Below are positions 3,056-32,750 of a DNA stretch of 32,750 bases, in pieces (the stretch's first letter is position 1; each line of letters starts with the position of its first letter). The notes under the pieces were generated by a model. That model made no database searches. It was given only the letters and a program-made list of their open reading frames with translations, and was not told the DNA's origin. Source of the stretch: a virus. The DNA is taken from the IMG/VR virus record IMGVR_UViG_3300021139_000071, positions 1 through 32,750 of that record, one strand, 5' to 3'. Made by a program: the position numbers and the translations under genes.

Positions 3056-4912
3056 TTAAACAATAACACAATTATTGCCTGCACAAGCAAGTTCTGCAGT
3101 GTGTGCCGTATTATCATCCATTTCTACTATTCTAGATAAATCAACATCATTTAAAACCTTCATCATAGACTCATATTGATTTTTTGTACAATCTTCAAAA
3201 GGAGCTTGTTTATATGTGCCTGAATCGTAAGGTAATACTGATAATCCATTATATGATTTTCTATTTTCCCACATCCATTTTCCTACTTCCTCCCATTCTT
3301 CTTCCTTAATAGAGACTGTTGCTGATATATTATTAGTGTTTTGACCTGATTTATGTCCAGGTTTTACCCAATTCTTATAAAAGTGTTTAACTCTTTCTAG
3401 TAATTCTATAGGAGATTCATATCTTAAAATAGAATTTTCAGGAGATTTTTGAGGAATAGATATTACAGCCGTATCATGGGGTCTAAAATACTCATCTTCT
3501 ACTAATTCTGGATGATATATTGATAAATAAGTGTATATGGCCTCATTTTTACTTACTCTTATCCTTCTTATATAATAATCATTATGCCAAGCGTGTATTC
3601 CGGAAGAAGTGCCTAAAACTAAAGAGGAGGTTCCAGAAGGTTTTATTGTTGTAGCTCTAGCGGCAGGATTTATTCCTATTAATCTAGCTATTTTTTCATT
3701 CTCTTCTTTTACTATTTGAGAAGCTTCATTTAAATCTAATTTACCTGCTACTCCCGATCCTATACCGGTCATACCTACCCCTATTAGAGCATCTTTTTCT
3801 GTGGTTTTTTGCCATATAGGTCTTAAATAATGGAAATTAGTATAACTAGCTTGTAAAGTACCTATTAAAGCTGCAGATTTTACTCTTTTATTTAAATCTT
3901 CTTGAGATTTTACATTAGACACATTCACTTCACATAGATTACAAAATTGGAAAGGTCTTAAACTAATCTCACAGCATGGGTTTGTCCCCCAATCTTTATC
4001 ATTTGATAAATATAATCCAGGCTCTCCTGCTCCACTAGCTTTTATTTTATCCCAAAGTTCAAAAAAGAAATCTTCTGTTACTCTATTTCTTAATAAAACT
4101 GCAGAATTATTAGATCTTCCTCTTTGAGGATTTAATTCCCACCAAGCTCCCGATTTAGAAGATATCATCTGATCATCATCAGCACTAAATAAACAGATTA
4201 GAGCTGCTCTACGGATGCCTCCTGCCAGTACTGCATCTGCTATATGGCATATAATATCATATACTTCTATAGGAGATAATTTTTCACCATCTTCTTTTAA
4301 ATTTAAAACTCCATCTATCTTTAACAAGCATTCTTTTAAGGGTTGAGGTCCGGGTGCCTTCCCTCCAGAGGTTAATAATCTCATACCTTTTTGTCTTATA
4401 TCTGAAAAATCAAAACTTATAGTAGGTCCTCCCGTAAAGTAAGATTTAATTAGCATTTTAATTGCATCAGACCATCCTTCTATACTATCTCCTATTAAAT
4501 ATCTTTTATGTTTTTTTAAATTAGATTTACGTATTTCAGGTAATTTATCTACATGATGCTTTTGTACTGAAAAACCAACTCCAGTACCACTAAGTAAAAG
4601 AAACATAGTTTCATTAAAAGCCCTTATATCATCTATGGGCAGGTAAGAACAATTATATATTCTTGTGGGATTTATTTCTATAGGTCTTCCTGCAAATTGC
4701 ATAGACCTCATAGAAGGTAATATCTCTCTATCATATACCAGCTTATAAGCTTCTCTAATTTCATATTCTAAATCAGGAAACTTTTTTAGGTGCATTTCCA
4801 TATTTCTAGTTACTAATTCTTCCCAAGTTTCCCTTCTTTCTAATTCAGGAAGATACTTAGCATATTTCATGTAAACTGTTACATCACTTAAAATTTTTTG
4901 AGAGATATCCAT
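3056..4912 (-). CDS. nrdJ: Adenosylcobalamin-dependent ribonucleoside-triphosphate reductase (class II, monomeric)
   Basis: This enzyme reduces ribonucleotides to deoxyribonucleotides for phage DNA synthesis using a B12-derived radical. The cysteine set of the Lactobacillus leichmannii-type enzyme is complete. Cys88 is in RIYNCSYLP. NPCCEISL (311-318) supplies the radical Cys313 and acid Glu315. Cys324 follows at +11, the same spacing as C408/C419 in the reference enzyme. The C-terminal pair is Cys610-x4-Cys615 (CAGNNC). LLLSGTGVGFSVQ (105-117) is the family glycine loop. At 618 residues it is about 120 shorter than the classic 739-residue enzyme. It depends on host or environmental cobalamin. 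It follows a weak terminator-like hairpin that separates it from the gene upstream. Confidence 0.93.
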   Translation of the reverse strand: MDISQKILSDVTVYMKYAKYLPELERRETWEELVTRNMEMHLKKFPDLEYEIREAYKLVYDREILPSMRSMQFAGRPIEINPTRIYNCSYLPIDDIRAFNETMFLLLSGTGVGFSVQKHHVDKLPEIRKSNLKKHKRYLIGDSIEGWSDAIKMLIKSYFTGGPTISFDFSDIRQKGMRLLTSGGKAPGPQPLKECLLKIDGVLNLKEDGEKLSPIEVYDIICHIADAVLAGGIRRAALICLFSADDDQMISSKSGAWWELNPQRGRSNNSAVLLRNRVTEDFFFELWDKIKASGAGEPGLYLSNDKDWGTNPCCEISLRPFQFCNLCEVNVSNVKSQEDLNKRVKSAALIGTLQASYTNFHYLRPIWQKTTEKDALIGVGMTGIGSGVAGKLDLNEASQIVKEENEKIARLIGINPAARATTIKPSGTSSLVLGTSSGIHAWHNDYYIRRIRVSKNEAIYTYLSIYHPELVEDEYFRPHDTAVISIPQKSPENSILRYESPIELLERVKHFYKNWVKPGHKSGQNTNNISATVSIKEEEWEEVGKWMWENRKSYNGLSVLPYDSGTYKQAPFEDCTKNQYESMMKVLNDVDLSRIVEMDDNTAHTAELACAGNNCVIV

Positions 4913-19188: not shown

Positions 19189-21558
19189 TTATGGATTTTT
19201 AGAAGTTGTAATTGTAGGACTTATTGCAGGAGGAACTCCACTAGTAGGCGAAGTTATGTATGTTTGTTGTACATGTTGAGCTATAGCTCTACCTCCTCCT
19301 ACTTGTACAACAGTAGTATGATTATATTCTGCAAATTTACCCATTACTCTTTCATTATTTTGATTATTAGCTTTTGAGTTTTTATCTTCATTGGATTCTA
19401 CGGTAGATCCTAAAGAAGGTCCTCCAAAGTTTTTACCTATTGTTTCAAAAGCCCCCGCTAAGTTTCCTGTACCAGATCTTACAGAGTTAGCATATCCCAA
19501 CCATTTATCTGTATCAGTAAAAGGAATATGCCCTATACCTTCTAATAAACTAGCTACTATACTGCCTACCATGCGAACAGCTCCAGCAATCATGTCAACC
19601 ACTCCTTTTATAACTCCTTTTATTTTTTCAGGATCAGTTAAAAAATCTAATATATGAGATTTAGTTATAAAATCTACAAAAATAGTTTTTAACTTTTCTA
19701 TTATTCCTGATAATTGTTCTGCTGTTGATGTTTGAGTAATATAATTATAAGAATCTTCCCCTAACATTTTATTAATTTCTGCTTCAGTTTTTCCTTGAGC
19801 TCTTAAAGTAGCTAATTTTTTTTCTGCATCCTTTAATCCATCAGCCCCTAGCTTTCTAAATACTTCTTGTTGTTTTAGAGTATCAGCCAAAGAATCTCTA
19901 GTCATACCTACTGATTCTGCTAAAGCATTTTGAGAAATTACATTTAATTTTAAGAAGTCTTGAGAACTTCCTACCTGATTAGTTATTTCTTTTGCTAAAT
20001 CAGCTAAATTACCGTTTAATGCAGCTTCCCTAGCTTTTTCTAAGTTTAAATTTTTACCAGTTAATACTTGTGCTTCAAATTCTTTAGAGATACTGCTTTG
20101 AAAGTCTAAAAAACTATCAGAAAGACCATTTAGTTGTTGTAAACTAAATCCTAAAGCTTTGGTTTGTTGTAATGCTTTAGCTATTTTATCAGGATATTCT
20201 GCAAATCTTAATCCTAAGACTCCTGAAAGTTTACCTGCTTCAGATAATATTCCTTGTAAATTAAAACTTATGCCTGTTAATTTTTTAAAAGAATCAACTT
20301 GTTTTGAAACCTGTTTAGTAGTCCCTTCCACAGTTTTTCCTGTTATAAGACTAGATTCATTCAAAGATTTTATAGTATCATCTTCTAAACCTGCTATATC
20401 TTTTAATTTAACACTAGTTTCTAATGCTTCATTTGATAATATGTTATTAACTCCTAATTGTTTACCTAAACTCATTTGAAGTTCAAGCATTCTAGTTGAA
20501 TTTATAACTGAATTACCAGAACTAATAGCAACTTGATCAAATCTTTCTCTTAATGCCTCTGCAGATTCTTTAGACATATTTAAAGACCTAGCTACATTAG
20601 TATTAGCTTGATCAACTCCTAATGCAAAATCAAGTACTGTTTTAAATAGTCCTATTAATCCTCCTACTAATCCTCCTATAAAAGGAAGAGCACTTGCTAC
20701 ATCTTGTAATCCTCCTAATATACTAGTAGCTCCTTTTCCTGATATCTTCCCTCCTCCTATTCCTGCACTATCCCCTCCTACCAAGTTAGCTACTTCTCCT
20801 GCTACAGACCCTACCATTTTAAAAGCACCTAATACTCCTTTTTCTAGAGTATTCGCTATTCCAACAGCTCCCTTTATTACAACTCCTTGCGGTCCTAATG
20901 CTTTTAATTTATCTATTTCAGATCCTATCCCTGATATAAATCTTCCAGTACCAGTTCCTGATTTTAAATTCTGAATAAGATTGCTTCCTATAGAGGATTT
21001 ACCATAGGCTCCTTGTATTTCTTTTTTTTCATTTTGTTGTGAAGCTAATCTCCTTTTGGATTCATCTAATTTAACTCCTGCAGCTATAGCCCCTCCAGAA
21101 TTTTTTAGAAGATTATTTAATTTTTTTTCAGTAGCTAATTTTTGATCATCTAAAGACTTATCACTAAATTTATTTCTTTTCTTTTTTTCTTCTATAGTTT
21201 GAGAAGAAAAAAATCCTGCTTTTTGTCTTTTATAATCATCAGAAACTTCTTTTCCTATGTTTTTTTGATAACCTAAATTAGTTAAAAGCTGTTTGGATTG
21301 TTGTTTTTGTATATCTTTTAATTGTTGATTTAATTTAAGATATTCATTATAATCTTTTTTACCTTTTTCTCCGTAAGAGTTTAAATTCTTTTCTAATTTA
21401 GCAGTTTCTTTTTTTGTTTCGTTTATACTTATAGTTTTTCTATAAATGCTTTCCCAAGTAGCATCTTCTTTTTTTAAATTGGCTAATCTAGAAGCAAATG
21501 CAGCATTTTCTTGTTCTATATTTGTTTCTTTTATTTTAGTTGATATCTGTTTAGCCAT
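19189..21558 (-). CDS. Tail tape measure protein
   Basis: At 789 residues this is the length ruler of the tail tube. The first ~200 residues are highly charged coiled coil (KETAKLEKNLNSYGEKGKKD, QLKDIQKQQSKQLL). Glycine/alanine-rich hydrophobic segments follow at about 290-315 (SALPFIGGLVGGLIGLFKTV), as expected for a protein that can enter the host membrane. A long helical region comes next, and another hydrophobic stretch at about 655-680 (GVVDMIAGAVRMVGSIVASL). The C-terminus is Thr/Ser/Pro-rich. At ~1.5 angstroms per residue this implies a tail near 115-120 nm, longer than T4's; this is inference. It lies directly downstream of the frameshifted chaperone gene, the usual chaperone-tape-measure order. 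Confidence 0.9.
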   Translation of the reverse strand: MAKQISTKIKETNIEQENAAFASRLANLKKEDATWESIYRKTISINETKKETAKLEKNLNSYGEKGKKDYNEYLKLNQQLKDIQKQQSKQLLTNLGYQKNIGKEVSDDYKRQKAGFFSSQTIEEKKKRNKFSDKSLDDQKLATEKKLNNLLKNSGGAIAAGVKLDESKRRLASQQNEKKEIQGAYGKSSIGSNLIQNLKSGTGTGRFISGIGSEIDKLKALGPQGVVIKGAVGIANTLEKGVLGAFKMVGSVAGEVANLVGGDSAGIGGGKISGKGATSILGGLQDVASALPFIGGLVGGLIGLFKTVLDFALGVDQANTNVARSLNMSKESAEALRERFDQVAISSGNSVINSTRMLELQMSLGKQLGVNNILSNEALETSVKLKDIAGLEDDTIKSLNESSLITGKTVEGTTKQVSKQVDSFKKLTGISFNLQGILSEAGKLSGVLGLRFAEYPDKIAKALQQTKALGFSLQQLNGLSDSFLDFQSSISKEFEAQVLTGKNLNLEKAREAALNGNLADLAKEITNQVGSSQDFLKLNVISQNALAESVGMTRDSLADTLKQQEVFRKLGADGLKDAEKKLATLRAQGKTEAEINKMLGEDSYNYITQTSTAEQLSGIIEKLKTIFVDFITKSHILDFLTDPEKIKGVIKGVVDMIAGAVRMVGSIVASLLEGIGHIPFTDTDKWLGYANSVRSGTGNLAGAFETIGKNFGGPSLGSTVESNEDKNSKANNQNNERVMGKFAEYNHTTVVQVGGGRAIAQHVQQTYITSPTSGVPPAISPTITTSKNP

Positions 21559-21602: not shown

Positions 21603-21878
21603 CTATTTTTTAGATTTTACAGTGGAAGAATAAACGGCATTTGGACTATCAGGAATCTTAATATCTGGTTTTAACATCAAGGGTTTGTCTGCAGTCACAG
21701 TTCTATTATTGTCCCTTATCTCTTGCATCTTTTCTAAATGCTCTTGAATGAATTTTATGTTAAGTCTTCTCTCAGAAACGGGCATATCCATTACTTCTGA
21801 CCATGAGAAACCTCCTCCACCATGATAAGTTAGTTCAAAAACTTCTCTTTTATATACTGCTCTGTACTCAGTCCCTGG
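21603..21878 (-). CDS. Frameshift-dependent C-terminal extension of the tape-measure chaperone
   Basis: This frame is open from CCA at 21878 to a stop at 21603 (91 codons). It lies in the +1 (equivalently -2) frame relative to the 253-residue gene just upstream, overlapping its last four codons including the stop. The first in-frame ATG is not until 21791, yet the preceding 29 codons read as good protein: PGTEYRAVYKREVFELTYHG then GGGFSWSEVMDMPVSERRLN. That favours production as a fusion (about 341 residues in all) over initiation at 21791, which would cut into this segment. The arrangement parallels the G/GT tail-assembly chaperones of lambda, Mu and other phages, where a shift just before the tape-measure gene makes a minor extended form. 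An indel in the T9 run is the main alternative. Confidence 0.7.
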   Translation of the reverse strand, partial: PGTEYRAVYKREVFELTYHGGGGFSWSEVMDMPVSERRLNIKFIQEHLEKMQEIRDNNRTVTADKPLMLKPDIKIPDSPNAVYSSTVKSKK

Positions 21879-22629
21879 GAAAAAAAAAGTCTGCTGTTAA
21901 AGGCAATATTTCTTCTACTTCTTTACCTGAAGATAGGGTAAAATTGACTTTTAGGTCAATATCAGGAGTTAAGTCTGCTATGTGTACTCTTAGTTTACTA
22001 GAATCTTTGGCTAATAAGTAGTTATCTACAAAATCTCTTATTGATTTGGTATCATAATTACCGTTTACAGATAAAATTTGGTGTTTTAATCTAGTAGTGA
22101 GTTCCCCTGCTTGTAAATTAGTTGCTTTTTTGAACCCTTTTATCTCTTGTTCTATAGCTTTTTCATCTGCTACAGTAAGAAGTTTAAAAGTTATTTCATT
22201 TTTAGAGTTAGGAAGGGTAAATTTGAATTCATTTTTATTATTATACAGAGAAAAGTCTACTTCTTTGTTTTTTAAAGTCTGTAAATCTATTGTTACCTCT
22301 TCTTTTATATCATCTTCAATATCAGTGTATTGAAAAGAATATTGAGAACCGTATGCTAGGATGCGAGCAGCTATTAAAAGACTATTTCTGTCTCCTAAAA
22401 GCAAATCATTGTAATCAATTGGTGATTTTATTAGGGATTGTAGCATTTTCTCTATTGCTATCCCTTGTCTAAGTAAATTAACATTAGTAAGAATATCTTC
22501 TTCCCTAGCTGTCATATACTTCATTTCCACTTTTCCTGAAGATAGTGGGTTTTCTTTGTCATACACTTTGCCTTGTGAGGCTAATTCAATTGTTTCTGTA
22601 GGTAACGTAAACTTTTCTTGTTGTGCCAT
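21868..22629 (-). CDS. T4 baseplate-type (gp26/gp51-like) protein, probable tape-measure chaperone
   Basis: This 253-residue protein begins MAQQEKFTLPTETIELASQG, with GKVEMKYMTAREEDILTNVN (about 32-51) and DLLLGDRNSLLIAARILAYG (75-94). This 'LPS.G..Y....pl..G.vem..mta.EEdiLt' followed by 'LL.gDR..lli..RilaYG' layout is that of the T4 baseplate family containing gp26/gp51-type proteins, cytoplasmic assembly factors rather than stable virion parts. A second domain follows (KNEITFKLLTVADEKAIEQE). It ends ADFFFPRD at TGA 21870-21868, directly after the T9-CCC sequence, beyond which another frame continues. TATTTATTA, part of the proposed late-promoter motif, lies 29 nt upstream. Its placement immediately before the tape measure supports the chaperone reading. 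Confidence 0.85.
   Translation of the reverse strand: MAQQEKFTLPTETIELASQGKVYDKENPLSSGKVEMKYMTAREEDILTNVNLLRQGIAIEKMLQSLIKSPIDYNDLLLGDRNSLLIAARILAYGSQYSFQYTDIEDDIKEEVTIDLQTLKNKEVDFSLYNNKNEFKFTLPNSKNEITFKLLTVADEKAIEQEIKGFKKATNLQAGELTTRLKHQILSVNGNYDTKSIRDFVDNYLLAKDSSKLRVHIADLTPDIDLKVNFTLSSGKEVEEILPLTADFFFPRD
21877..21888 (-). other. Candidate frameshift site TTTTTTTTTCCC (T9-C3)
   Basis: On the mRNA strand the zero frame reads GAC TTT TTT TTT CCC AGG GAC TGA. The downstream open frame needs a net +1 or -2 shift. A +1 slip of the proline tRNA from CCC to the overlapping CCA, or a -2 slip of phenylalanine tRNAs on the T run, would each join the frames just before the TGA at 21870-21868. A single surplus T in the sequence would have the same effect. 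Confidence 0.6.
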
Positions 22630-24468: not shown

Positions 24469-24954
24469 TCAATAGTTTAGGATGCAGAAATCCATTCCTA
24501 TAGTCAAATCTAAACTAATGGCTTCATTTGCAGACCAGTCATATTCACCTGCTTTGAAAGTTTTTACAAAAGCTCCTTTTATAATCCATTCGCTTACTAC
24601 ATCTCCTACAGGGCCTAATATTGATAAGTTTAAATCTTTTTTGTAGAAGTCAGAATACCCATCTCTTCCAGTTACAGATTCATGTGAAAGTCTAACCCAT
24701 TCCATTACAGCCTGTTGACCTGAAGGAGAAATTGGACTATAAAGAGATAAATTCATATCTTTCCATTCTGCTTTACCTTTTATTTTACGGTAAACGTTGA
24801 TATGTTCTAATCTTATCTCACCCAAATCTACTTCAGGAGCAGAAGCTTTTTTAATCATGAAAGAAGGAATACCATCTATGTACATAATGAACCTATTTTG
24901 TACCATTGGTTCATAAGCTGTAAACATTATTTCGTTTGGATCTAATATTGGCAT
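24469..24954 (-). CDS. 19: Tail tube protein, gp19-like
   Basis: This 161-residue protein (T4 gp19 is 163) forms the inner tube of the contractile tail. It contains QNRFIMYIDGIPSFMIKKAS, then a beta-hairpin with INVYRKIKGKAEWKDMNLSL, where T4 has 'INVAGDRTFDDWTV'. VMEWVRLSHESVTGRDGYSD matches the loop and helix region, KKDLNLSILGPVGDVVSEWI follows, and the end is YDWSANEAISLDLTIGMDFC, as in the T4 'LDWDSNNEIQTFEVTLALDYW'. The order of strands and the terminal 'D.s....i...lt...D' agree with the tube family. A strong terminator follows it. The homing endonuclease lies in reverse orientation directly upstream. Confidence 0.9.
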   Translation of the reverse strand: MPILDPNEIMFTAYEPMVQNRFIMYIDGIPSFMIKKASAPEVDLGEIRLEHINVYRKIKGKAEWKDMNLSLYSPISPSGQQAVMEWVRLSHESVTGRDGYSDFYKKDLNLSILGPVGDVVSEWIIKGAFVKTFKAGEYDWSANEAISLDLTIGMDFCILNY

Positions 24955-25059: not shown

Positions 25060-26514
25060 ATGAAAAAATTTAATTGTAAAACTTGTGGAAAAGAAAATAT
25101 TAATACTAGGAGTAGACCTAAAAAATATTGTTCTAGAGCTTGCGCAAATGCAGATCCAGAAGTTAAAGCAAAAATTGTTGAATCTCAAAAAAAAACCTAT
25201 GATAAAAAATACGGATGTCATCCTATGAAAACAGAAGCTACCAAAAATAAACAAAGGGAAGTTATGTTAGAAAAATATGGTTCAAAATTTGCTATGGGTG
25301 TTAAATCTATACAAAAAAAATCAGAAGAAACTAAAGTTAAATTATATGGAGATCCTTTTTATAATAATATAGAAAAAGGTAAGAAAACAAAGTTAAATAA
25401 ATATGGAAATGAAAATTATAATGGTCAGAGAAAAAAAACCATTAGAGCAATAGATAAAAAAATATTGGAATGGGAAGATATTATTATTCTCAACTATGAT
25501 CCTACTAAATCCATAAAAAATCAATTATTTAAAGTAAAATGTGTTAAATGTAATTCTGAATGGGAAGGATCTTTAAATAGTAATTATAAACCTAAATGTA
25601 AGTTTTGTTCTGATAAGATTAAATACATTAAAATTTCAAAAGGACATCAAGAAATTATTGATTACATTAGATTGATATCACCTGACATAGAAATAGATAT
25701 AAATGATAGAACCACATTGATTGGGGATGAGTTAGATATATCTTTACATAAAAAGAAAATATCAATAGAATTTAATGGAATATTTTACCATAATAGCTTT
25801 TTTAAAACTAAAGATTATCATTTAAAAAAAACTTCTAGATGTTTACATAGGGGAATAACTCTTATACACATATTTGACTATTTATGGTGGTCTAAAAAGG
25901 ATTTAATAAAATCTATGATAAGTGCTAAATTAGGAATATTCAATAAAAGACTGTATGCTAGAAAATGTGAAATAAGGTTAGTCAAATATGATAAAAAAAA
26001 AGTATTTTTAAATGAAAATCACTTACAAGGAACTGCTAACAGTTCAGTAAATATAGGATTATATTTTGAAAATGAATTGGTATCTATATTAACCTTAGGA
26101 ATTCCTAGATTTGATAAAAAAGCAGATTGGGAAATAATTAGATACGCTAGTAAACAAGGAGTACAGGTTATTGGAGGATTTAGTAAAATGTTACAATATT
26201 TTATAAGGAATTATACTCCAAAAGTTATAGTAACATATTGTGATAGGACTTGGAGTAGTGGTGAAACTTATTTAAAATCTGGTTTTACTTTTGACTCTTT
26301 TACTCCTCCTAATTATTTTTACTTTAAAAATTTAAATGTATATCCTAGACAAATGTTTCAAAAACATAAGTTGAATAATATTCTAGAAAATTTTGATCCT
26401 TCTAAAACAGAAATGGAGAATGTATTAAATAACGGGTACTTTATGTTTTGGGATTGTGGCAATCTTAAACTTTATTACAATACCTCTAATACAAAAAGAA
26501 AAATCCCCATTTAA
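25060..26514 (+). CDS. Free-standing homing endonuclease, EDxHD/Vsr-like, with zinc-ribbon and NUMOD-like repeats
   Basis: This is the only plus-strand gene in the window, 484 residues. An N-terminal zinc finger has Cys6, Cys9, Cys24 and Cys28. Residues 43-120 repeat a 'K..K......YG' unit (DKKYG, LEKYG, VKLYG, LNKYG), resembling NUMOD-type DNA-contacting repeats. A second zinc ribbon is CVKCNSEWEG...CKFC (161-183). The nuclease-like core has GDELDISL with Asp226, ISIEFNGIFYH with Glu237 and His244, then YHLKKTSRC and LIHIFDYLW with His270 and Asp273. This is the I-Bth0305I/Vsr-type fold. The C-terminal domain includes VQVIGGFSKMLQYF and VTYCDRTWSSGETYLKSGF, common in phage homing endonucleases. 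Its stop lies in a bidirectional terminator. It sits between two conserved tail genes, so it is probably a mobile intruder. All frames are intact despite A9 runs. Confidence 0.85.
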   Translation: MKKFNCKTCGKENINTRSRPKKYCSRACANADPEVKAKIVESQKKTYDKKYGCHPMKTEATKNKQREVMLEKYGSKFAMGVKSIQKKSEETKVKLYGDPFYNNIEKGKKTKLNKYGNENYNGQRKKTIRAIDKKILEWEDIIILNYDPTKSIKNQLFKVKCVKCNSEWEGSLNSNYKPKCKFCSDKIKYIKISKGHQEIIDYIRLISPDIEIDINDRTTLIGDELDISLHKKKISIEFNGIFYHNSFFKTKDYHLKKTSRCLHRGITLIHIFDYLWWSKKDLIKSMISAKLGIFNKRLYARKCEIRLVKYDKKKVFLNENHLQGTANSSVNIGLYFENELVSILTLGIPRFDKKADWEIIRYASKQGVQVIGGFSKMLQYFIRNYTPKVIVTYCDRTWSSGETYLKSGFTFDSFTPPNYFYFKNLNVYPRQMFQKHKLNNILENFDPSKTEMENVLNNGYFMFWDCGNLKLYYNTSNTKRKIPI

Positions 26515-27604: not shown

Positions 27605-29377
27605 TTAACTACCGAAAACTACTCCTGTTGGCTGTACATTAAATGTTAGCTGTATAAACTCTGCTGTTTTTGTTGGTTGTAGATAGATTGTACCTACTAA
27701 CAAGTTTCTATCAATTACATCAGGAGTATTATTGGTATCATCCATCACTACTTGATAAGAATATAAACCTTGTCTCTGTTGTACAGAAGCTAAATAAGGA
27801 TTAACTTGTGAAGTAAATTTATTCCTAGTAACTGTAGTGTTTTGTTCAAATACTAAAGTTTCAGCTATTTGGCCTATATAAGATTTAAGAGCAATCAACA
27901 ATCTTCTTACATTTACTCTGTTAAGAGCAGATGCTTGAGAAGCTAAAGTCTTTTGACCGTAAACTACTACTCCTTGACCTGGGAATGTTGCTATAGGATT
28001 AACTTTTGCTGAATAAAGAGTATCTCTCATCGCTTGTGTTAATCTTCTTTCAGGTTGTAATACGGTAGGTAATCCACCTCTGTTCATACCTGCAGGTGCA
28101 AACCATTCAGCAGCTACAGTATCATTGTATTCATATACTCCCGGAATTACTGTAGAAGGAGGTACAAAATGTAATCTACCTGTATCAATAGAAAGTATTT
28201 GAACCCAAGGCCAATAAGTAGCTCCGTAAGAAGTATTATAAGAATTAGCTAGTGAACATACTGTTGACACTGCTTGACCGTATCCAACCAAATCCAATAC
28301 TGCAATATTATCTCCTCTGTTTTGAGAATTAATTAATATAGTACTAAATTCAGAAGGTGAGTTTTGAGCTGTTAATCCTGGAGCATATATTGAATTGTAA
28401 ATATAAGAGCTCTGATCATTCATTAAGTTTATGGCTAAATCATAATCAGTAGAAAGTACTCCTTGAATATTGTTTACACCGCTAGTAGCTGATACTGTTG
28501 GTATAGTTTCGTGTAAGTTCAATTGGAAGGTATTGTAGAAACCATATATGGGTCCTGTAGCACCGCCAAATGCACCATTTGATGATCCACTATTAAGTTG
28601 GGGTATAGATGCAGTATACGAAGGATTAGACACTAATCCCTGTTGGTTTAAATAGTTTGGAGTAGTATAGTTTACTGATTTTACTCTTACATAATTAGAA
28701 GAATTATTGTAGCTTCCTGTTAGTTGTAAATAGGCTTGACCAGTTTCATCTGTTACTACGTTACTAGCTTGATTACCTATTACGTATTCTATGTAATTAT
28801 TTTGATTTGGATCTAAAGATAAGTTAGTCCAAGATTCTAATACGTTTTTACTATTTTGATAATCGTCCCCCCTTCTAATATTTAAAGAGAAAGTACCTGA
28901 CCCTGTGTTTGCTGAAGTAATTTCCCACCTAACATTCAAAGCAGAACCTGATTGTAGTGCAGATGAACTAACATAAGAAGCAGAAAAATCATTATTCATC
29001 ACAGTACCTACAGATAGAGTTTCTAAAGTGAAGGCACCTACTGTATCCCCGGGAACATTTGTAGTAATTAAAGAAGAAGTTGCAGGAGTGTAAGAACCGC
29101 TAGCTACCCTAGTAATTAACAAAGATTGACCTCCTTGTTGAAAATAGTTATAGGCCGCTTGAGAAGTTAAATACTCTCTAGTTACTCCACCAGAAATAAA
29201 AGTATTTCCAAATAAAGCTACATATTGTGAATATGAAGTTACTACAGTAGGAATATTTGGTTTTCCTAATACGGTTGGACCTATCAAAGCTGCTCCAACA
29301 GTTATTGGATTCTTTGTTATCTGTGATTGGTTGCTTTCCTGTAGGAATACTCCAGGACTTAAAATTGTTTCTGCCAT
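27605..29377 (-). CDS. 18: Contractile tail sheath protein, gp18-like
   Basis: This 590-residue protein polymerises around the tail tube and contracts at infection. It begins with the typical sheath start SPGVFLQESNQSQITKNPIT and VGAALIGPTVLGKPNIPTVV, then SYSQYVALFG...YLTSQAAYNYFQQGG, conserved in T4-type sheaths. An inserted, variable beta-rich domain (about 100-290) follows. The C-terminal core is diagnostic: NRGGLPTVLQPERRLTQAMR, VNPIATFPGQGVVVYGQKTL, LNRVNVRRLLIALKSYIGQI and KTAEFIQLTFNVQPTGVVF. T4 gp18 is 659 aa, so this version is somewhat shorter, mainly in the inserted domain. An exact 12-mer motif lies 19 nt before the ATG, consistent with strong late expression. Confidence 0.95.
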   Translation of the reverse strand: MAETILSPGVFLQESNQSQITKNPITVGAALIGPTVLGKPNIPTVVTSYSQYVALFGNTFISGGVTREYLTSQAAYNYFQQGGQSLLITRVASGSYTPATSSLITTNVPGDTVGAFTLETLSVGTVMNNDFSASYVSSSALQSGSALNVRWEITSANTGSGTFSLNIRRGDDYQNSKNVLESWTNLSLDPNQNNYIEYVIGNQASNVVTDETGQAYLQLTGSYNNSSNYVRVKSVNYTTPNYLNQQGLVSNPSYTASIPQLNSGSSNGAFGGATGPIYGFYNTFQLNLHETIPTVSATSGVNNIQGVLSTDYDLAINLMNDQSSYIYNSIYAPGLTAQNSPSEFSTILINSQNRGDNIAVLDLVGYGQAVSTVCSLANSYNTSYGATYWPWVQILSIDTGRLHFVPPSTVIPGVYEYNDTVAAEWFAPAGMNRGGLPTVLQPERRLTQAMRDTLYSAKVNPIATFPGQGVVVYGQKTLASQASALNRVNVRRLLIALKSYIGQIAETLVFEQNTTVTRNKFTSQVNPYLASVQQRQGLYSYQVVMDDTNNTPDVIDRNLLVGTIYLQPTKTAEFIQLTFNVQPTGVVFGS

Positions 29378-31006: not shown

Positions 31007-32750
31007 TTATTTATTTAATAGTGATTTTAATTCATCAATTTGTTGTTGTTGATCTTTAATAGCTTCTATCAGTAATGAAACTATTTTATCATATTTAACA
31101 GCTTTATATCCGTTATCTCTTGTAGTAACAACTTCCGGTAATACTTTTTCTATTTCTTGTGCTATAACTCCTACATCATGTCCTTTATATGAATGATATT
31201 CTTCATTAGGAATCCAATCAAATTCAACACCTGATATTTGTTTTATTTTATCTATTGGATTTTTTATTGGAGTTACATTAGTTTTAAATCTATTATCTGA
31301 AGTATTATAAGCAATAACATCACTAATAGTTGATATAGTACCTATATTATTTATATAAAAAACAGTTGTACTTCCACTTACTATATCAAAATAATTTGAT
31401 GTTTGGGCTGTTAAAGCTTTTATACCAAAAGAAGCAGTATTTGCGTTATTATTAACTATTTCTACTAAGTGAGTTGGTATTGGGGTAGATGAGAAAGATG
31501 TTACGTTTGTGAATGTACTATAATTAGATAAAAATTGTAATCTACTAAATGGAGCATCAGTTCCATAAGTTCCTCCTAACATAGTAAGATAGTTAGTAGC
31601 AGAAGAACCAGAAAGAGTTTGAACTTGAAAATAAGAAGATGTTTGATTATCTGTCCATCCAGGATAATTAGCAGTTAATCTAAATTGAGATACACTTGGG
31701 CTACTACCTCCTGCTGCTCCTTGTAATATTAATCCAGTATTAGTATTACTTATACTTACATTAGGTCCATTTGGAGTATATATAGACAAAGATCCACTAA
31801 AGCTAGCATTAGTACCATTTAGTACTCCTGTAAAGTTACCGCTTCCACTTACGTCTAAATTATATTGTGGATTAGGTTGGTTTATACCAACATACCCTCC
31901 TGTTGAACCAGAGAATGGATTTCCTGTTGTAGTTCCATAAGAACCACTACCAAATATTAAACCACCTATATTAATACCATTATTATAATTTATAGGTAAA
32001 GTAATATTAGTACCAATTATAATATTATTATTGCCTATTGATCCTATAAGACTACCACTATTATATGCAACACGGTATCCTATTAAATTTGAATAGTTAC
32101 TTGTTATTTGATATGCATTTTGAAATCCTAAAAAATTAGAATATTGTGAACTTGTTGAATATTGTCCTGTGGATCCTCCTATAAAATTAGAATAAGAAGA
32201 TCCTATTGCTTGATTTCCTGCATTTGCTCCAATAAATACAGAAGTAGAGGCATTAGAAGCACTAAATCCTGAAGATATTCCTACAAATACTGAATTTGAA
32301 GTATTTGGAGCAAATCTACCAGCATAATATCCTATAAAATTAGAATAGTTAGAACTTGATGCTTGATATCCTGCAGCATATCCTATAAAATTAGACTGTT
32401 GTGAATTAGAAGCATTGTATCCAGCATTTTGTCCTATAAAATTAGAAGAATAAGAACTTGATGCTTGATATCCTGCAGCATATCCTATAAAATTAGAAAG
32501 ATAAGAGCCTGATGATTGAGATCCTGCAACATATCCTATATAATTAGATTGATAAGAACCTGTAGATATATACCCTGCTTGATATCCTATAAAATTAGAT
32601 AATTGGGATCCTATTACTAAATATCCCGCGCTTTGACCTATAAAATTAGACTGTTGTGAATTAGAAGCACTATATCCTGCTCCTTGACCTATAAAATTAG
32701 AAGAATAAGAACTTATAGCATATTCTCCAGCTTGAGCTCCTATAAAATTA
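31007..32750 (-). CDS. Tail fibre with 17-residue repeats and C-terminal peptidase-S74 (intramolecular chaperone) domain; N-terminus off the window
   Basis: The frame is open from the right edge to a stop at 31007, at least 581 codons. Nothing supports a start at the TTG (31789): translation continues upstream through NPFSGSTGGYVGINQPNPQY and NLDVSGSGNFTGVLNGTNAS. In order, the protein has a repeat array (YSNFIGY.AG-type units of 17 residues, window edge to about 32079), a linker, and the chaperone domain from about 31290. That domain contains NTSDNRFKTNVTPIKNPIDK, with the conserved Ser-Asp near the self-cleavage site, then VEFDWIP, GHDVGVIAQEIEKVLPEVV and KYDKIVSLLIEAIKDQQQQI. S74 domains trimerise fibres and then cut themselves off. 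The repeats resemble left-handed beta-roll adhesin heads. The product is probably a receptor-binding fibre. Confidence 0.9.
   Translation of the reverse strand, partial: NFIGAQAGEYAISSYSSNFIGQGAGYSASNSQQSNFIGQSAGYLVIGSQLSNFIGYQAGYISTGSYQSNYIGYVAGSQSSGSYLSNFIGYAAGYQASSSYSSNFIGQNAGYNASNSQQSNFIGYAAGYQASSSNYSNFIGYYAGRFAPNTSNSVFVGISSGFSASNASTSVFIGANAGNQAIGSSYSNFIGGSTGQYSTSSQYSNFLGFQNAYQITSNYSNLIGYRVAYNSGSLIGSIGNNNIIIGTNITLPINYNNGINIGGLIFGSGSYGTTTGNPFSGSTGGYVGINQPNPQYNLDVSGSGNFTGVLNGTNASFSGSLSIYTPNGPNVSISNTNTGLILQGAAGGSSPSVSQFRLTANYPGWTDNQTSSYFQVQTLSGSSATNYLTMLGGTYGTDAPFSRLQFLSNYSTFTNVTSFSSTPIPTHLVEIVNNNANTASFGIKALTAQTSNYFDIVSGSTTVFYINNIGTISTISDVIAYNTSDNRFKTNVTPIKNPIDKIKQISGVEFDWIPNEEYHSYKGHDVGVIAQEIEKVLPEVVTTRDNGYKAVKYDKIVSLLIEAIKDQQQQIDELKSLLNK
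32079..32750 (-). repeat. Coding tandem repeat, 51-bp period (17 residues), 14 units visible
   Basis: The plus-strand element cctataaaattag (or close variants) recurs at 32127, 32178, 32229, 32280, 32331, 32382, 32433, 32484, 32535, 32586, 32637, 32688 and 32739, exactly 51 bp apart. One further unit lies 48 bp to the left at 32079. On the coding strand each unit gives 'SNFIGY.AG..AS.S..Y'. Units at 32229 and 32280 are more diverged (VFIGANAG, VFVGISSG). The array continues past the right edge. It lies within the tail-fibre gene. Confidence 0.9.

Follow-up and report, generated by a model that had tools for sequence, protein, structure and literature searches.

The window, as the whole 32,750 nt stretch analysed here is called (positions 1 to 32,750 of IMG/VR virus record IMGVR_UViG_3300021139_000071), carries on its minus strand genes for a tail sheath (27605–29377; phrog_23 tail sheath, E 6.9e-66), a tail tube (24469–24954; phrog_4542 tail tube, E 2.2e-20) and a tape measure protein (19189–21558; 30 % identical, with E 1e-29, to the protein annotated as tape measure in Flavobacterium phage immuto). 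The putative tail assembly chaperone gene lies directly upstream of the last of these, between the tail tube and tape measure genes, as in G/GT pairs; one structural gene and a plus-strand endonuclease-like ORF are found between tube and chaperone. A 484-aa ORF matching DUF7487 (25060–26514, plus strand), on the opposite strand between the tail tube and structural genes, looks like a homing-endonuclease-type insertion. Elsewhere in the window, a class II ribonucleotide reductase with a match to the B12-dependent insertion domain (3056–4912, minus strand), an ORF weakly matching the acyl-CoA:6-aminopenicillanic acid acyltransferase family, which is unusual in a phage (2177–3034, minus strand), and a tandem repeat array of period 51 (102, 153) at the window end (32319–32650) were noted.

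The chaperone gene comprises two overlapping frames. The frame-0 ORF (22629–21868, minus strand; 253 codons) is predicted to encode a G-type (short, TAC-N) tail assembly chaperone and its 3′ end reads GAC TTT TTT TTT CCC AGG GAC TGA, in which the T9 run (21880–21888) forms three Phe codons, CCC occupies 21877–21879 and the TGA stop of the short form 21868–21870. A second frame, +1 relative to the first, is open across this point and continues as an extension of 91 codons plus a stop (21603–21878) which begins PGTEYRAVYKREVFELTYHGGGGFSWSEVMDMPVSERR and would encode a T-like domain; when one base is skipped at the site, a single open frame of 341 aa results. The first ATG of the extension (PGTEYRAVYKREVFELTYHGGGGFSWSEVM) comes after 29 codons, and ATG, GTG and TTG are all absent from those 29, so this N-terminal portion has no possible start of its own. 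On re-reading of the minus strand, the coordinates and the site description given in the earlier note (T9-CCC, an early stop and an open second frame) proved correct.

The G part matched PF12322 (T4_baseplate) with 38.2 bits (cut-off 24.5) and phrog_150 with an E value of 2.9e-12, and addition of the extension raised the phrog_150 match from 47.6 to 54.6 bits and carried it to position 280 of the 282 in the profile. T4 gp26 and gp51 both belong to the T4_baseplate family; the end of the phrog_150 profile is reached by gp51 and not by gp26, and likewise by the fused window protein. The C-terminal tail of gp51 (23 residues) resembles the FSWSEVMDMPVSERRLNIKFIQEHLEK of the window in spacing and motif, and comparison of the extension with this tail by hhalign gave a probability of 2.3 % and an E value of 0.021, values that, for tails this short, are no more than suggestive; nothing further was learned when the full profile of the fused protein was compared with an alignment of four gp51 members. 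In the structure model, confidence was high over the G part and low over the extension. The G-part model had matches in BFVD among the predicted structures for T4-like baseplate hub assembly proteins, and no solved structure resembling the model was returned by the structure search. Judged by sequence, the G part corresponds to T4 gp26 and the G and T parts together to gp51, and the product is predicted to be a T4-type tail assembly chaperone; the likeness between the G+T and gp51 tails is suggestive.

Relatives were collected from IMG/VR in two scans, the first of which yielded 80, and all loci were classified with profile models of the G and T parts. T9-CCC, the early stop and the open downstream frame all recur in L002, a separate IMG/VR contig encoding an identical protein, and in L003 (96 % identical), and T9 is also present in L004–L013 (75–79 % identity). 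Among the 161 loci having both parts, which share ancestry and whose counts are not independent, the second part was in the +1 frame in 160 (one-third expected at random), the exception being L063, where it is a separate gene in frame 0. No close relative among these loci carried the two parts as one continuous frame, the arrangement that the earlier note had set out as the contrary case. All 160 +1-frame loci have, 2–7 codons before the frame-0 stop, an in-frame [CT]TT with T or C as the next base; within the same interval, [CT]TT|Y occurred in 46 of 428 (11 %) other long ORFs of the same loci, and strict motifs in none of the 428. Conservation of the slip site and of the overlapping frame across divergent relatives, named beforehand as a test, was thus borne out, and 12 further loci, taken later from MAG contigs mostly of Flavobacteriales bins, all had the +1 arrangement.

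The proposed P-site slip codon is the last TTT of the T9 run (21880–21882), which would become UUC in the +1 frame. The corresponding codon among 119 nonredundant loci was TTT in 114 and CTT in five, and never TTC, and the frame-0 A-site codon was TGG in 89, CCC in 20, TTC in four, TAC in three, and CTA, TTT and CGT in one each, the commonest site being UUU_UGG and that of the window's clade UUU_CCC. Over the rest of these genes, TTC accounts for 256 of the 1081 Phe codons (24 %), and other conserved Phe positions do switch between TTT and TTC; multiplying the TTT fractions of the individual genes for 114 out of 114 TTT at the slip codon gave 10^-17.3, a value overstated given the shared ancestry of the loci. 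Past the frame-0 stop, differences within 14 related locus pairs fell mainly at third positions of the +1 frame, much as in the G part, so that this stretch evolves in the manner of a protein-coding sequence. Copy number was assessed in 11 further genomes or long contigs of the family, of which six are draft virus contigs (the window is itself a fragment): all 11 had a single G place, and 10 had a single T place. In Rhodothermus phage RM378, TTT TTT TGG is present and the +1 frame stays open for some 70 codons, a stretch to which the T profile model gives no match.

The comparative evidence (two-frame structure, conserved slip codon and G-part homology) supports the frameshift-extended T4-type tape-measure chaperone that the earlier note had proposed, and these features, like the deep conservation, the coding constraint, the single copy and the gene position, can be read directly in the DNA. 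The locus very probably encodes a T4-type tail assembly chaperone that is made in two forms from one gene via a +1 frameshift. Most ribosomes would terminate at TGA after making the short form of 253 residues, and a fraction is inferred to pause when the P site holds Phe-tRNA on the final UUU and the A site a slow CCC codon; the Phe-tRNA would then shift forward by one base, from UUU to UUC, and reading would go on in the +1 frame to give a long form of 341 residues whose C-terminal domain is T-like. By analogy with lambda gpG/gpGT, from which the efficiency of the shift, the ratio of short to long form and the chaperone function are taken, the tape measure protein encoded downstream would be coated by many short and few long molecules, with the T-like domain recruiting the tail tube subunit.

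The slip is most likely to occur on UUU and not on CCC, because UUU or CUU is common to the sites and the A-site codon is mostly UGG. Slippage on CCC as a general signal was ruled out on the same grounds, UUU/CUU being the invariant codon, and it is not the T9 run and CCC that are essential: what the sites share is a P-site UUU (or CUU) followed by a codon that starts with a pyrimidine, mostly UGG. The literature supports these tetranucleotides: in bacteria, +1 frameshifting is reported to be especially likely at UUU_Ynn, and the site of release factor 2 is CUU_U (PMC5009743). Re-pairing after a +1 shift (UUU to UUU or UUC, CUU to UUU) is possible, with one exception, at each of the 119 sites as placed. 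That exception is Listeria phage LIS04 (GAG TTT TTT AGT), in which UUU_AGU at the second Phe does not fit UUU_Y and a slip on the first UUU would be needed. With regard to stimulators, no signal of downstream RNA structure was obtained (mean z −0.92, compared with −1.20 in a control stretch), and no more than a mild upstream G-rich excess, at best a hint of a Shine–Dalgarno-like stimulator, was seen (median per-locus p 0.125), which was clearest in the CCC class (−3.47 versus −1.40 kcal/mol expected).

Variant sites, among them UUC_UUC_UUU_CCC, UUC_UUU_UGG and UUU_CUU_UGG, speak for a +1 P-site slip on UUU and against RNA polymerase slippage or a −2 shift as the general mechanism. If the polymerase slipped on the T run, a subpopulation of mRNA with one U fewer, or two more, would be translated normally into the long form; the T9 run of the window and of L002–L013 is long enough for this, most relatives have T7, and such slippage could add to frameshifting in the T9 clade, the window included. 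Homologous sites with T runs of only 3–4 bases nevertheless keep the same frame relation, namely UUU_CUU_UGG in L033, L037, L072, L082 and L173, UUC_UUC_UUU_CCC in L016 and L024, and the likewise short-run UUC_UUU_UGG in L259–L268 and L270–L273 and UUC_UUU_CGU in L087, and polymerase slippage was for this reason rejected as the general mechanism and is considered unlikely.

A −2 ribosomal shift, as proposed for Mu-type phages, would land in the same frame as a +1 shift and is permitted by the T9 sites, that of the window among them, and by the T7 sites. It would, however, place the Phe-tRNA on UCU or ACU, with a mismatch at the middle position, in L016, L024, L084, L087, L259–L268 and L270–L273; because re-pairing fails at these sites the −2 shift was rejected as a general mechanism, and it must be regarded as very unlikely. 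The UUU_CUU_UGG sites do not help to separate +1 from −2, since Leu-tRNA can pair with a first-position G:U either way. Of the net +1 or −2 shift suggested in the earlier note, it is the +1 alternative that is favoured.

The extension might also be a separate gene that is translated from an internal start or by re-initiation, with no fusion being made, and T-like ORFs with their own ATG past the G stop do exist in L063, L269, L274 and L086. These four loci (L063:2998–4113, L269:1501–2700, L274:1501–2511 and L086) are losses within the +1 clade, in which the second gene is started separately and the frame relation is gone; in L269 the slip codon has been lost as well. Against a separate gene in the window stand the first 29 codons of the extension, which are conserved and startless, and in 64 of 112 nonredundant loci there is no start codon between the slip site and the core motif. 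A separate gene would also have no reason to remain in +1 across 160 of the 161 loci, nor to retain the slip codon, and this explanation is highly improbable. That the gene is in truth intact and its T run was misread or misassembled is a negligible possibility. One base fewer in the run would indeed give a continuous ORF, but the same site is present in an identical independent contig and in more than 100 divergent genomes, cultured phages included, many relatives' sites have no homopolymer, and error was rejected on the finding that independent contigs and 160 relatives carry the two-frame arrangement.

Other solutions are found within the same protein family. In the cyanophage homologues L179–L258 (80 loci, 61 distinct), which comprise a baseplate protein and a short hub assembly catalyst ORF, the locus logic and the Phe-Phe ending of the G part resemble those of the +1 loci, whereas the second part is encoded in −1, a frame that is open throughout it in 80 of 80, and NNT TTT TTC, an invariant −1 heptamer U_UUU_UUC, occurs at the corresponding Phe-Phe, three codons before the stop, in all 80. 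The second part is usually annotated separately in cyanophages, as a baseplate hub assembly catalyst. Two Rhizobium phages look like the cyanophage type (GAT TTT TTC and GAT TTT TTG). The +1 clade, where the extension is in the +1/−2 frame, has no lambda-like −1 heptamer. The base before TTT TTT TGG in the UGG class (L029–L174) was C in 58, G in 27, A in four and T in none, against a third-position background of 37 % T; the absence of T before T6 would prevent a −1 heptamer and is a signature of direction. The rarity of A at this position is left unexplained by avoidance of the −1 heptamer.

In a maximum-likelihood tree, which has several long branches and whose details are less sure, the +1 clade was apart from a clade of the −1 phages and Straboviridae (100/99), and gp26 and gp51 grouped together (98/96), as expected from duplication. 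The related T4 proteins are encoded by separate genes, as had been stated previously, and this description can be corrected to the extent that gp26 corresponds to the short form and gp51 to the short form plus the extension; T4 therefore looks like a derived exception and not the baseline. The T4 two-gene state, with paralogous G genes of which one has an in-frame extension, was not seen among the 11 genomes or long contigs with their single G place. On balance we favour, with some reserve, a history in which T4-type tail chaperones switched between opposite frameshift directions at one homologous Phe-Phe site, with one deep clade shifting +1 (UUU_Y, C or G before the T run), another shifting −1 (U_UUU_UUC), and Straboviridae such as T4 having given up frameshifting for a duplication of the gene into gp26 and gp51.

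Nearly all long-tailed phages make a short and a long chaperone by frameshifting. Like lambda gpG/gpGT and similar −1 pairs, the present locus would supply a short chaperone and a minor frameshifted form from a position between the tail tube and tape measure genes; unlike them, it has a G part of the T4_baseplate family, and the −1 heptamer is replaced by a proposed +1 slip on a UUU/CUU P-site codon before a pyrimidine-starting codon. T4 gp26/gp51 share the G family, and the gp51 tail bears a suggestive resemblance to the T-like domain, but they are two separate genes with no frameshift, in place of one gene with a +1 site. The slip tetranucleotides CUU_U and UUU_C of the bacterial prfB and influenza A PA-X +1 sites are also represented here (CUU_UGG and UUU_CGU), although the genes are different ones and none of the A sites here holds a stop codon.

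Vladimirov, Gautam and Davidson (2022) are said to have proposed T4 gp26 and gp51 as the T4 tail assembly chaperones and, by the title of their paper, reportedly have T4-like chaperones arise by a mechanism other than frameshifting. That work is cited for one short gene plus one fused gene (PMC10885494) and as the source for poly-T −1 signals in T4-like phages (PMC12846349). According to a 2016 review, G–T frameshifting is widely conserved except in T4, and the tail chaperone of the archaeal myovirus HSTV-2 very likely uses a +1 shift (PMC5009743), the same direction as proposed here; HSTV-2 is a haloarchaeal virus. A +1 site in the T4-type chaperone family was not reported in the literature searched, a search that covered few subscription papers. 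As far as these accounts go, T4-like phages either lack such a frameshift or shift −1, and a +1 shift in this family looks new.

If the proposed +1 shift is true, the locus and its relatives would fill the T4 gap with a conserved +1 frameshift of bacterial phages that needs no stop codon at the shift site and shows no obvious downstream structure. The relatives would offer natural variation in slip site and direction, along with cases of loss, through which +1 slippage could be studied. Second halves now annotated as hypothetical or missed would become parts of chaperone genes in Flavobacterium phage immuto and Microcystis phage Mel-JY01, and apparently also in Rhodothermus phage RM378 and SP-15-like phages. 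The arrangement recurs in well over 100 related phages, and T4 would meet the same need differently.
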